NCBI RefSeq assembly: GCF_020171525.1
Contig: NZ_JAIVAI010000001.1
Location: 372,001 to 436,000 of the forward strand
From: Halobacillus yeomjeoni
GTDB taxonomy: Bacteria > Bacillota > Bacilli > Bacillales > Halobacillaceae
Direction: 5' to 3'
Length of the DNA stretch: 64,000 bases
In this document: piece by piece, positions 3,908-8,000 of the stretch
How positions within the stretch are numbered: the first letter of the stretch is position 1
How the letters are laid out: each line of letters opens with the position of its first letter
Position numbers and translations under genes: made by a program
Notes under the pieces: model-generated
Database searches by the model: none
Told to the model about the DNA's origin: nothing
Seen by the model: the letters and a program-made list of their open reading frames with translations, nothing else

Positions 3908-4786
3908 GTGCAACTGACCGACTATCTCACTGAGAAACGTAAAATGATTAATGCTCAATTGAAAATGTATGTACGCGATTATTCTACACCAGGAAGAATT
4001 CAAGATGCCATGCTTTACTCAATAGAAGCAGGTGGGAAAAGGGTTCGTCCTATTTTACTACTTGCAACTGCAAAAGCCTTCGGTGCGAGCGAGGAAAAAG
4101 CACTAGCCGTTGCTTGCAGTTTAGAGATGATCCACACTTATTCTTTGATACATGATGATCTGCCTGCGATGGATGATGATGACTTGAGAAGAGGAATGCC
4201 TACAAATCATCGTAAATTTGATGAGGCTACTGCGATTCTGGCAGGAGATGCATTGTTGACATTGAGCTCTTTGGTTATTGCTGAAGACTCCCACCTGACA
4301 GATCAAGAAAGGGTTTTCTTAATTCGTGAGCTTTCTAAAGCGAGCGGAGCAAAAGGCATGGTCGGAGGGCAGATGCAGGATATGCTTTCTGAAAACACCG
4401 AAGTGTCTTTAGAACAATTGGAGAACATTCATCGAAACAAAACCGGTCAACTGCTCCGTTTTTCAATTATCGCTGGAGCATATGTAGGGAATTCCACTGA
4501 AGAAAGCTTGGAGGAAATGACGAGGATGGGGGAAGCCCTCGGACTCATTTTTCAAATTCAGGATGATATTTTGGACGTTACAGGGGACGCCGAGGTGATC
4601 GGTAAACCGATCGGAAGTGATGAAGGGAATGCCAAGAGTACTTATCCCAAGCTTCTTGGGCTGGAAGGCGCAAAACGACAGAAAGAGCGATACGTACAGG
4701 AAGCACAAGACGCCTTAAGGAATGCTGGTGTGGATCAGACAATTTTATCTGAATTGATTGATTACCTAAGCAGCCGGGATCATTGA
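3908..4786 (+). CDS. ispA: Farnesyl diphosphate synthase (short-chain prenyltransferase)
   Basis: A 292-residue trans-prenyltransferase that condenses IPP with DMAPP and GPP to make farnesyl diphosphate, feeding quinone, undecaprenyl and terpenoid synthesis. The first aspartate-rich motif DDLPAMDDDDLRRG is at residues 83-96 and the second, QIQDDILDVTGD, near 217; GGKRVRP binds diphosphate near 42. The start is GTG with AGGAGGAA upstream. The gene ends just before the OLE RNA promoter, so dxs, in the same pathway, is separated from it by the ole and oapA genes. Confidence 0.96.
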   Translation: MQLTDYLTEKRKMINAQLKMYVRDYSTPGRIQDAMLYSIEAGGKRVRPILLLATAKAFGASEEKALAVACSLEMIHTYSLIHDDLPAMDDDDLRRGMPTNHRKFDEATAILAGDALLTLSSLVIAEDSHLTDQERVFLIRELSKASGAKGMVGGQMQDMLSENTEVSLEQLENIHRNKTGQLLRFSIIAGAYVGNSTEESLEEMTRMGEALGLIFQIQDDILDVTGDAEVIGKPIGSDEGNAKSTYPKLLGLEGAKRQKERYVQEAQDALRNAGVDQTILSELIDYLSSRDH

Positions 4787-4799
4787 TGTGACGTTTAGA

Positions 4800-4828
4800 T
4801 TGAGGACCAATTCATAATATGGTATATT
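4800..4828 (+). promoter_or_regulatory. Sigma-A type promoter for OLE RNA
   Basis: TTGAGG at 4800-4805 and TATATT at 4823-4828 are separated by exactly 17 bases, 14 bases after the ispA stop codon. The predicted transcription start is about 4835, which matches the 5' edge of the OLE RNA region. Confidence 0.75.
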
Positions 4829-4834
4829 AGGGTT

Positions 4835-5445
4835 ACAAAAGGAATGGTGCAGTATCCTAGTCGGCCCTCCGTTCCTGAAGGCGGGCCTAAAAATCCGCCA
4901 AAGGGCACATCGATGAAGTTCCTTGTGTTGGCTTGAGGCGCCCAGCCTTGGGTCGATGCTGGGAGTTAAGGTCGCAGGGCGATCCACAAAGGCATGTGGG
5001 CGTTGACCCTGCTTCCGCGGAGGCCCATCTTTGTAAGAGTCTCTGAGCCAGAGGCTCTTATGAAATGGGGTATGAACCTGCAGCATATGGAGTAATATCT
5101 ATATGCGCAGCGTAGCCTGCCTTGAGTGGTTTTGAGGGGATTACAGTCATGTGAACATCAAGCAACTTCGGATGGCCACTGAAGTTTTGATGTGTTAACT
5201 GTATGAAATCATCACTGCAAAAGAGGCTAAGGAACGGTCAAAGGCTGTCGGGGAAATCCCCTAGGCTGTTCACGTAATGGACATGATACAGGAATTATAG
5301 TGCGGACTAAGTGGCAATCTAGTCCAGCTTTCGGAGACGGAGCTGAGTCAAGTTTAAAGGGGAACCGCCAGAGTGGTGACACTCGGTACTTGATTGGGAA
5401 AACCTACTAGACCTAAGCCGCAATTTTTACCTGTATCATGACCAT
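4835..5445 (+). ncRNA. ole: OLE RNA (ornate, large, extremophilic)
   Basis: A roughly 610-base GC-rich non-coding stretch between ispA and a gene for a small membrane protein, immediately upstream of dxs. This is the size, place and neighbour set known for OLE RNA in Bacillus halodurans and other Gram-positive extremophiles. OLE forms a membrane-bound ribonucleoprotein with OapA and other Oap proteins; its loss is known to cause sensitivity to cold, short-chain alcohols and magnesium. Seen here: a closing helix of CATGATACAGG (5282-5292) with CCTGTATCATG (5430-5440), a long two-part hairpin at about 5142-5204 (AACATCAA/AACTTC with GAAGTT/TTGATGT), GGACTA/TAGTCC at 5304-5325, AAGAG/CTCTG with CAGAG/CTCTT at about 5035-5059, and GTGGGC/GCCCAT near 4997-5031. 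No good ORF is present. Ends are estimates from the promoter and the last helix. Confidence 0.95.
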
Positions 5446-5489
5446 TCCTTTCCATACATAAAATAATCAGTTATATATAGAGGTTGAGA

Positions 5490-6089
5490 ATGGACAATAA
5501 ATTAAAAAAATCCTTAAAATTCAGTTTAAGTATTGCCGTTATCACATTCGTGTTAGCGGCTATTTTTTCAATCATATCTTCTTCCGTCCTTAGCGAAGTC
5601 ATATGGATTTTCGGTCTGATCATCGTATTCATCATCGTTTTTACCGGGGTCATCTTCGATATGTTAGGGATAGCTGCTACGGCAGCGGAAGAAACCCCTT
5701 TCCATGCCATGGCTTCAGAGAAAGTCACAGGAGCAAAAGAAGCGATTACAATCGTGCGTAATGCCGACAGATTCGCTAGTTTCTGTAATGATGTAATAGG
5801 GGATATATCAGGTATAGTTAGTGGAACAGCATCCGCCGTCGTCGTACTTCAATTGACGCAGGTAATGGGTTACGGCGAAGGTTCCAGTATTCAAATTGCA
5901 ATATCAGTGGTGCTGACAAGTATCGTAGCCGCTCTGACTGTAGGAGGAAAGGCTCTAGGGAAGTTTTTCGCCATTCACTCATCAACGAAAATCATATTTT
6001 TCGCTGCAAGAGTCATTTCCTGGTTAGAAACCAAGTTGAAGGTAAAACTGTTAACAAATGCTACTACATCCACTAAAAAAACTAGATAA
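5490..6089 (+). CDS. oapA: OLE-associated membrane protein OapA
   Basis: A 199-residue integral membrane protein located between OLE RNA and dxs, as known for OapA, the protein that binds OLE RNA and brings it to the membrane. Hydrophobic segments lie at about residues 10-30, 38-58, 104-122 and 135-152. A DxxxD motif (DVIGD, residues 101-105) is present; an aspartate motif of this form is, to my knowledge, conserved in OapA. The stretch FDMLGIAATAAEETPFHAMAS (begins residue 56) looks conserved, and the C-terminus is basic (KLKVKLLTN..KKTR), fitting RNA contact. The ATG at 5490 is chosen because AGAGG lies seven bases before it; a TTG at 5484 is too close. dxs follows 18 bases later. Confidence 0.93.
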   Translation: MDNKLKKSLKFSLSIAVITFVLAAIFSIISSSVLSEVIWIFGLIIVFIIVFTGVIFDMLGIAATAAEETPFHAMASEKVTGAKEAITIVRNADRFASFCNDVIGDISGIVSGTASAVVVLQLTQVMGYGEGSSIQIAISVVLTSIVAALTVGGKALGKFFAIHSSTKIIFFAARVISWLETKLKVKLLTNATTSTKKTR

Positions 6090-6107: not shown

Positions 6108-8000
6108 ATGGATCTGAGCAAAATTCAAGACCCTTCAATTTTGAAGGATATGACTACAAATCAGCTAGAAGAAATGGCAGAGGAAGTCAGGCAGTTTCTT
6201 ATCAAGAACTTAGCCGTTACCGGAGGACATTTAGGTGCAAACCTGGGTGTCGTAGAGCTTACGCTTGCTTTGCATAAAGTATATAACAGTCCAGTAGACC
6301 GTTTCTTATGGGATGTGGGTCACCAGTCCTATATCCATAAAATCTTGACTGGGCGGGGCAATCAGTTCGAAACTCTTCGTCAATATCGCGGGTTGTGCGG
6401 TTTCCCTAAAAGGGATGAAAGTGAGCATGATGTGTGGGAGACAGGACATAGCTCAACTTCGTTGTCTGCAGCCATGGGTATGGCTATTGCACGCGATTTG
6501 AAGGATGAAAAGCATTCCATTCTTCCTATTATCGGTGATGGCGCTTTGACCGGCGGAATGGCCCTGGAAGCCTTGAATCATATTGGACATGAGAAAAAAA
6601 ATGTAACCGTTATCCTCAATGATAATGAAATGTCAATCGCCAAAAATGTGGGGGCTCTTCACGGTGCATTGGGACGAATGAGGAGTGCAGGTAAATATCA
6701 TAGAGCTAAAGATGATTTAGAGTGGTTACTTAAAAAAGTACCAGCTGTCGGCGGTAAATTAGCTCAAGCAGCTGAGCGTCTGAAAGACAGCATGAAATAC
6801 TTCGTCGTGCCTGGCATGTTTTTTGAAGAATTAGGTTTTACGTATTACGGTCCTGTGGATGGTCACGACTTTGAAGATCTTATCGATAACCTGAACTATG
6901 CCAAGAAAACGGATGGTCCGGTAATTGTCCATGTCATGACACAAAAAGGAAAAGGGTATCACCCAGCTGAGACAGATGTAAAAGATAAGTGGCATGGTGT
7001 AGGTCCTTATAAAATCGAATCTGGAGAAAAAATCAAACCGACCGATGCTCCACCTGCCTGGAGTTCGGTAATAAGTGAAGCCCTTCGTAAAGAAGCGCGG
7101 GAGGATTCCCGTATCGTTGCTATAACACCAGCTATGATTCTTGGTTCTAAGCTGGATAAATTCGGTGAAGAATTCCCTGACCGTTTATATGATGTGGGTA
7201 TTGCAGAACAGCATGCCACAACTTTATCAGCCGGAATGGCTACGCAAGGCATGAAACCATTTCTAGCTATATATTCCACTTTCCTGCAAAGGGGATACGA
7301 TCAAGTTATTCATGACGTAGCAAGACAAAAATTGAATGTCATATTTGGTATTGATCGTGCCGGGCTCGTAGGAGCCGATGGTGAAACACACCAAGGTGTC
7401 TTTGATGTTGCCTTCCTGCGTTCTGTACCGAATATGGTAATCACTATGCCAAAAGATGAAAACGAAGCCCAGCATCTCGTTCATACAGCTGTCCATTATG
7501 ATGATGGTCCTATTGCCATCCGTTATCCGAGAGGCAATGCTAAAGGTGTAGAGACGGATGAAGAACTACGGACAATTCCGATCGGCAGCTGGGAAGTTCT
7601 GAAAGATGGAAATGACGCAGTGATTTTAACTTTCGGAACGACCATAGATATGGCACTTGAAGCCAGTCGCAATTTGGAAAAAACAGGTCAATCGATCCGG
7701 GTAGTCAACGCAAGGTTCATCAAACCTATGGATGATGCCATGCTGCATGACATCATGAAATCAGGCATGCCGATTTTGACGGTTGAAGAAGCTGTTTTAC
7801 AAGGCGGATTTGGATCAAGCGTTCTCGAATTTGCCGAAGAAAATGGTTATACCCATCAGGTTGTCAAACGTATGGGCGTCCCTGATCGTTTCATCGAACA
7901 CGGCAGCGTCAACAAGCTGTGGGAAGAAATCGGCTTAACAGAAGAAAATATTGTGAAGCATGTGAAGGAATTGCTTCCAACCAAACAGCAAAGGGCATAG
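6108..8000 (+). CDS. dxs: 1-deoxy-D-xylulose-5-phosphate synthase
   Basis: A 630-residue thiamine diphosphate enzyme joining pyruvate and glyceraldehyde-3-phosphate to DXP, the entry step of the MEP isoprenoid pathway. The TPP motif starts at GDGALTGG (143-150); GHQSYIHK (near 71), TGHSSTSLS (near 112) and [15 protein letters not shown] (near 365, catalytic Glu) are all present, followed by the transketolase C-terminal domain ([14 protein letters not shown]). Length fits the family. It has a GGGGGT ribosome binding site and lies four bases before tlyA, forming an oapA-dxs-tlyA transcription unit. Confidence 0.97.

Follow-up and report, generated by a model that had tools for sequence, protein, structure and literature searches.

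The OLE RNA is one of the largest RNAs of bacteria for which no biochemical function has been established. In Halalkalibacterium (Bacillus) halodurans it has been linked to cold, alcohol, and Mg2+ stress (PMC11332333, PMC9723947), and it is bound there by the membrane protein OapA (PMC12265935, citing Block et al. 2011). Helix P5 and its joining segments form the kink turn for OapC in that organism (PMC9723947), the P4 hairpin is a dimer contact in cryo-EM models (PMC12265935), and the site for ribosomal protein bS21, located in P6, contains a CCUCCU motif that the published mutants M1 to M3 showed not to be needed for binding (PMC12054373). The OapA mutant PM1 of H. halodurans, which carries D100A and D104A, is dominant-negative and does more damage than a deletion, except when OLE, OapB, or OapC is defective as well (PMC9723947). 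Replacement of the control part of a CNNM transporter by OLE has already been proposed, and both the linkage of OLE with OapA and an anticorrelation of OLE with MpfA have been reported (PMC11332333). GOLLD and ROOL are likewise large structured RNAs with RNA-only oligomers, but they form cages whereas OLE is a dimer, and the sequences are unrelated (PMC12286853).

The locus described here lies between ispA and dxs on the plus strand of a Halobacillus-group genome (3.27 Mb in 15 contigs), and it is nearly certain that it represents an ordinary, complete copy of the published ole-oapA system; as such, it is one more copy of something already known. Among the papers searched, none named Halobacillus together with OLE RNA, but the scan in PMC11332333 covered the whole of GTDB R214 and is very likely to have included relatives of this genome. 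We suggest that the best reading of the system, with a probability of roughly 0.55, is a membrane complex that resembles CNNM transporters, is controlled by RNA, and serves the homeostasis of metals and stress, the mechanism being inferred. Throughout, the window is the whole 64-kb stretch of DNA that was analyzed.

Identity and layout of the locus

A preliminary description, made from the sequence alone, had identified OLE RNA, and a search with the Rfam covariance model, the check named there, upheld it with a full-length match to RF01071 (Table 1). The score exceeds both the gathering score of 50 bits and the 390-bit full-length limit of PMC11332333, a limit set with that paper's own model. 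This was the sole gathering-level Rfam match within the window, the only other match at an E value of ≤1 between positions 4700 and 6200 being sR39 at 15 bits, below its cutoff of 50, and OLE is present as a single copy in the genome. The region had also been called heavily structured and free of open reading frames. Positions 4835 to 5461 fold with a stability z score of −8.5, and none of 20 dinucleotide shuffles was as good, which bears out the first point; the second is right in substance, a mechanical open reading frame of 106 amino acids on the minus strand (4766 to 5086), antisense to the 5′ part of OLE, having no Pfam match and being most likely due to chance.

Table 1. Coordinates of features at the ole-oapA locus, numbered from the first base of the window
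Feature	Position	Strand	Evidence or remark
ispA (farnesyl diphosphate synthase), upstream neighbor	3908..4786	+	NF045485, 402.2 bits
Candidate sigma-A promoter of ole, TTGAGG-N17-TATATT, TGn before −10	4800..4828	+	consensus scan
OLE RNA (ole)	4828..5461	+	RF01071 model 1-616 of 616, 514.9 bits, E 3.9e-148
P1 5′ arm, closes whole RNA	4838..4848	+	pairs with 5441-5451; absent from RF01071
P3.1 5′ arm	4863..4866	+	pairs with 5243-5246; absent from RF01071
P3 5′ arm	4869..4875	+	pairs with 5231-5237; absent from RF01071
P4 hairpin, A-rich loop	4880..4899	+	RF01071 alignment
P5 and joining segments	4907..4974	+	RF01071 alignment; consensus letters kept; exact limits inferred
3′ arms of P3 (5231-5237) and P3.1 (5243-5246)	5231..5246	+	covariation
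11-bp helix 5′ arm, closes 3′ domain	5282..5292	+	partner 5430-5440
11-bp helix 3′ arm	5430..5440	+	partner 5282-5292
P1 3′ arm	5441..5451	+	covariation with 4838-4848
GAGG, likely oapA ribosome-binding site	5480..5483	+	sequence reading
oapA, 199 amino acids, predicted four-helix membrane protein with DxxxD	5490..6089	+	OapA profile, 161/161 loci
dxs, downstream neighbor	6108..8000	+	TIGR00204, 928.3 bits

The flanking genes were recognized as ispA and dxs by their protein profiles, as had been claimed, and the gene order 3′ of OLE is oapA, dxs, and then tlyA. Further neighbors, which from the look of their sequences we take to be nusB, folD, xseA, and xseB, together with argR, recN, spoIVB, and spo0A, complete the surroundings. 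The start codon of oapA is probably the ATG at 5490, 28 bases from the end of the RNA model and preceded by GAGG at 5480, rather than the TTG at 5484 given by the open reading frame tool.

A promoter belonging to the RNA itself had been proposed from the motif TTGAGG-N17-TATATT. The motif is there, but it is not significant alone, because five promoter-like sites were found in 1.8 kb against 3.1 (standard deviation, 1.6) by chance. Upstream promoter-like sites were present at 100 of the 101 scorable distinct loci (window included), whereas mononucleotide shuffles gave a mean of 54.9; 94 of the sites have TGn. A conserved putative ole promoter, judged by this loose rule, is supported. The RNA would start near position 4835. 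A terminator-like match inside the RNA (5011 to 5024; three found against 1.3 expected) falls in a conserved stem region and was taken for chance.

Scanning of positions 5461 to 5490 revealed nothing that resembles a terminator, which makes read-through into oapA likely, and in H. halodurans the transcript is single and polycistronic (PMC12265935). Both observations would suit a region that is simply a structured cis-regulatory leader of oapA-dxs; we consider this very improbable, given that the full-length conserved OLE architecture, the promoter-like site of its own, the trans-acting partners OapB, OapC, and bS21 encoded in the genome, and the published phenotypes of ole deletion all speak against a mere leader.

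RNA secondary structure

Covariation was assessed in 104 distinct OLE sequences, drawn from 132 loci that all contain the RNA (window included), with the partner arm of each helix slid as a control; the slides retain relatedness, which inflates pair counts, and the helix register was taken from the window sequence, which favors the true register over the slides. The 11-bp helix that had been taken to close the region is real and covaries, with 97.4% of 1,144 cells paired and 231 two-sided changes in 10 of 11 pairs (slide maxima, 48.5% and 89), but it closes the 3′ domain only. The RNA as a whole is closed by P1, in which 89.8% of 1,141 cells were paired, with 68 two-sided changes in 8 of 11 pairs (slide maxima, 60.1% and 35) and with poor conservation of the outermost three pairs. 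P3.1 (99.3% of 416 cells; 55 two-sided changes in three of four pairs; slide maxima, 62.6% and 13) and P3 (96.2% of 728 cells; 64 two-sided changes in all seven pairs; slide maxima, 71.0% and 16) behaved similarly, and P2, which was 100% paired with almost no change, holds little information on covariation. An alignment-free comparison of P3 with its own and with foreign 3′ segments gave mean energies of −18.5 and −13.3 kcal/mol, respectively, the own arms pairing better in 94 of 96 distinct arm pairs. Duplex folding assigned 12 to 18 pairs to P3, a figure that includes a few neighboring pairs, in the 112 sequences that could be parsed from 133, the other 21 having been dropped with unmatched text anchors.

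Since P1, P3, and P3.1 are already named in the published consensus (PMC12265935), this covariation is confirmation rather than discovery, and the gap lies in the Rfam model: approximately the first 53 and last 21 positions of RF01071 are unpaired. The model leaves P1, P3, and P3.1 unpaired despite their strong covariation and could be updated.

Partner proteins and bS21

A search for oapB and oapC, also proposed in the preliminary description, found both to be encoded: an OapB-like protein (L008) matched PDB entry 7k9b, "OLE-associated protein B," with an E value of 1.9e-32, and an OapC/YbxF protein (L004) matched 4lck with an E value of 3.9e-21. The neighbors of the OapB-like gene are presumably map and infA. 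A broken OapC was considered and rejected, the apparent stop inside the match being the normal stop codon. In addition, the genome encodes bS21, a further L7Ae-like protein (L005), and a single CNNM/MpfA-type transporter of 430 amino acids (L002). It thus resembles H. halodurans in its full-length OLE, with oapA directly 3′, and in encoding OapB, OapC, and bS21, whereas H. halodurans is reported to be without mpfA (PMC11332333).

The presence of bS21 bears on a different reading, in which OLE is a scaffold or ribozyme that acts on translation or second messengers (bS21, c-di-AMP) and OapA is its anchor only. The binding of bS21 and the accompanying phenotypes are published (PMC12054373), and the idea of a c-di-AMP synthase is in print (PMC11332333). 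Against this, a perfect anti-Shine-Dalgarno mimic, CCTCCT, as found in P6 of H. halodurans, occurred in P6 of only 1 of 101 parsed distinct sequences and was not found in P6 of the window (4965 to 5020), though, as noted above, it is dispensable for binding. We regard this reading as rather unlikely, and the residues of OapA, to which we now turn, weigh on both sides of it.

Kinship of OapA to CNNM transporters

The proposed four-helix OapA with a DxxxD motif agrees with an AlphaFold2 model built from 37 sequences (pLDDT, 84.9; pTM, 0.74), in which four long helices are predicted, and D101 and D105 are in place; a model from 12 sequences was dropped (mean pLDDT, 59.6). When the model was compared with the PDB by Foldseek, ranks 1 to 4 were occupied by the four chains of MtCorB (probability, 1.00; E value, only 7e-3 to 0.13; query TM score, 0.45 to 0.55; rmsd, 4.3 to 9.2), in agreement with a published comparison; sequence searches of the PDB with OapA, single or as a profile, gave nothing meaningful. 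The OapA of the window scored 22.9 bits against Pfam CNNM (PF01595), below the cutoff of 28.4, and comparisons of profiles gave an E value of 3.1e-5 (probability, 72.9) for 37 phylum-wide OapAs against 13 CNNM domains from relatives, 2.7e-4 (41.7) for 129 distinct OapAs against 15 CNNM domains, and 1.4e-5 (80.3) for the same 129 against 28. OapA has remote sequence similarity to the CNNM/CorB/MpfA family and a predicted membrane fold that comes nearest to that of MtCorB (7M1T/7M1U), but it has an extra N-terminal helix and, at 199 amino acids, no room for CBS or CorC domains.

In MtCorB, the Mg2+ ligands are Ser21, Ser25, Ser71, Gly110, and Glu111, and the neighboring Pro114 and Lys115 are conserved (PMC8242095). 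MtCorB numbering was transferred by alignment to the CNNM domains of relatives, and in all three OapA-CNNM alignments K154-x-x-G157-K158 aligned to Glu111-x-x-Pro114-Lys115 and D57 fell on Ser25, while D105 of the DxxxD motif stood one residue beyond the Ser71 column, beside a gap, its exact place being soft. OapA consequently differs from MtCorB in having Lys for the ligand Glu111, Gly for Pro114, and Asp at the position of Ser25; the Glu and the helix-breaking Pro of the CNNM TM3 motif GExxPK are missing, and GGKxxGK is found instead. D101 and D105 were kept in 161 of 161 loci and GKxx(G/S)K in 160, the one exception having both lysines. D57, D101, D105, K154, and K158 were invariant in all 129 parsed distinct OapAs, and the three of the 161 loci that failed the motif filter, and are absent from the 129, kept all five residues when read by hand. 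The missing Pro and the DxxxD motif were noted in PMC11332333; a replacement of Glu by Lys was not found in searches of the main text of that paper. By motif, D100 and D104 of PM1 are the predicted equivalents of D101 and D105.

The exceptional locus (L077, in genome G049) encodes a divergent OapA that, at 29.4 bits, is the sole OapA over the Pfam CNNM cutoff among 61 genomes. G53 and G153 are replaced in it by Ala and Val, respectively, which shows that neither glycine is universal; it retains all of the pocket Asp and Lys residues and is possibly an intermediate.

These invariant residues suggest that OapA matches the CNNM Mg2+ site with swapped chemistry, and with this comparison the link to Mg2+ transporters, until now a general one, is narrowed to the residues K154, D57, D101, and D105. 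The ion-site detail is our own addition to the published proposal. An anchor-only role for OapA would leave the conservation of D57, D101, and D105 throughout unexplained; the invariant K154 and K158, on the other hand, could hold RNA phosphate rather than serve an ion pocket, as the scaffold or ribozyme reading would have it.

Orientation of OapA in the membrane

Segment limits were drawn manually on the window protein, and start codons were assigned by rule. OapA then averages 3.4 Lys plus Arg residues at the N terminus and 7.0 in the C-terminal tail, whereas loops 1-2, 2-3, and 3-4 have means of 0.2, 4.7, and 0.15, respectively. The inside-minus-outside charge bias ranges from 11 to 22 across all 129 proteins and is at least 5 even without the tail. 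The positive-inside rule relates such bias to membrane orientation and, applied here, predicts a single orientation with both the N and C termini inside. Antiparallel dimers, and OapA sites on either face of the membrane, have been considered (PMC12265935), and the charge bias speaks against both, as an independent sequence argument against an architecture considered in print; if OapA does have a single orientation, antiparallel models would be wrong.

The same bias bears on the proposal that OLE spans the membrane by way of P3, with domain 2 outside to report on the cell wall (PMC12265935). That P3 and P3.1 are genuine covarying helices is in its favor, as is the length of the P3 duplex given above, which is near the 14 bp that the proposal requires (PMC12265935). 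With domain 2 outside, OapB, which binds it, would have to be outside too (PMC12265935), but OapB is without an export- or insertion-like segment, its best 19-residue mean hydropathy being 1.42 against 3.06 for OapA, and the single orientation predicted for OapA runs counter to the two-faced sites or antiparallel dimers of the proposal. We consider a membrane-spanning OLE improbable.

Proposed mechanism

According to the preferred reading of an RNA-controlled, CNNM-like complex, the locus would make an OLE RNA of approximately 620 bases, from its own promoter or within the operon, together with OapA, which by analogy with H. halodurans would anchor the RNA at the membrane. OapB, OapC, and bS21, all encoded in the genome, are expected to join the OLE-OapA complex. 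OapA would be a stripped CNNM/CorB transmembrane domain in which the CBS pair and the CorC domain have been replaced by OLE RNA and proteins, and the ribonucleoprotein would sense metal, energy, or translation state and gate the movement of divalent ions through OapA; gating of this kind would account for the loss phenotypes of H. halodurans (Mg2+, cold, alcohol, and carbon source).

A more specific version of this scheme, which we put forward as tentative and consider rather unlikely, is that OapA is a CNNM domain of single orientation in which the charges of the ion pocket have been placed the opposite way: Asp57 for Ser25 in the first core helix, D101 and D105 next to the ligand Ser71 of the second helix, and Lys154 for Glu111. 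OapA would then work as an ion device, either gated or coupled in a different manner, or as a metal sensor, and would move only once OLE RNA and its proteins undo a Lys-Asp lock. If this were true, the Lys154-Asp pair would be a built-in cation or lock inside the pocket; in PM1 the lysine would have lost its partner and the device would be jammed, and this would account for the dominant harm of the mutant. OapA may be no transporter. It lacks the Glu and Pro of CNNM, and the letters of the pocket do not map simply onto transport, because in TtCorB changes of Ser, Glu, Pro, or Lys near the pi-helix lower transport whereas changes of the Ser and Asn ligands raise it (PMC8242095). Pocket and orientation are modest additions to the published scheme, predicted from sequence and testable: if removal of K154 suppressed PM1 or altered metal flux, the question of function would become an ordinary transport experiment.

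Distribution of OLE, OapA, and CNNM proteins

Among 249 Bacillota genomes, 182 had OLE and 185 had OapA; none had OLE only, and the three with OapA only (G173, G270, and G296) all had the locus at a contig end. The distance from oapA to the contig end was 150 bases in G173 and 214 in G296; in G270, the contig ended 229 bases upstream of oapA, and its final bases are, by eye, the 3′ end of OLE. With these cases at contig ends, no independent OapA or OLE was seen among the 249 genomes. Searches from either side agreed, oapA being present in 52 of 52 loci found first by OLE and OLE in 80 of 80 found first by OapA, these being the best 80 of 466.

OLE was present in 52 of 61 genomes, comprising the window genome and 60 relatives, and in none of 14 control genomes; B. 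subtilis, said in the preliminary description to lack OLE, is among these controls and does so. Relics of OLE were sought in relatives without it, and no trace was found at eight loci (Rfam, E value of ≤1), indicating clean absence; in these eight relatives, the frame before dxs is, by eye, ispA, at a distance of 95 to 575 bases. The ninth, G021, is uninformative on loss of OLE because it is a 1,000-contig assembly with a distant dxs match (E value, 2.4e-17).

A CNNM match over the cutoff was found in 61 of 61 genomes, and exclusion of MpfA by OLE was therefore rejected for this clade. The number of CNNM proteins per genome, counted by CNNM match alone (126 matches, with the OapA of G049 excluded and a 157-amino-acid fragment in G024 kept), averaged 2.02 in the 52 genomes with OLE, each of which had at least one; for the nine OLE-free genomes the average was 2.33 (Mann-Whitney P = 0.11, a test that took in eight of these nine). 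The anticorrelation of OLE with MpfA is weak in this clade, and since all 52 OLE genomes retain a CNNM protein, OLE is not a simple replacement of MpfA here.

Two records deserve separate mention. In the OLE-free genome G053, dxs is split into two overlapping frames (L045 and L047) near residue 165, which reflects either a sequencing error or a real frameshift. A record titled Roseburia sp. 1XD42-34 (L122, 1501 to 2070) contains a Virgibacillus-like ole-oapA locus; its OapA is 73% identical to that of the window and its P3 arms are almost the same as in Virgibacillus proomii (L100), and either an incorrect title or a mixed assembly is probable.
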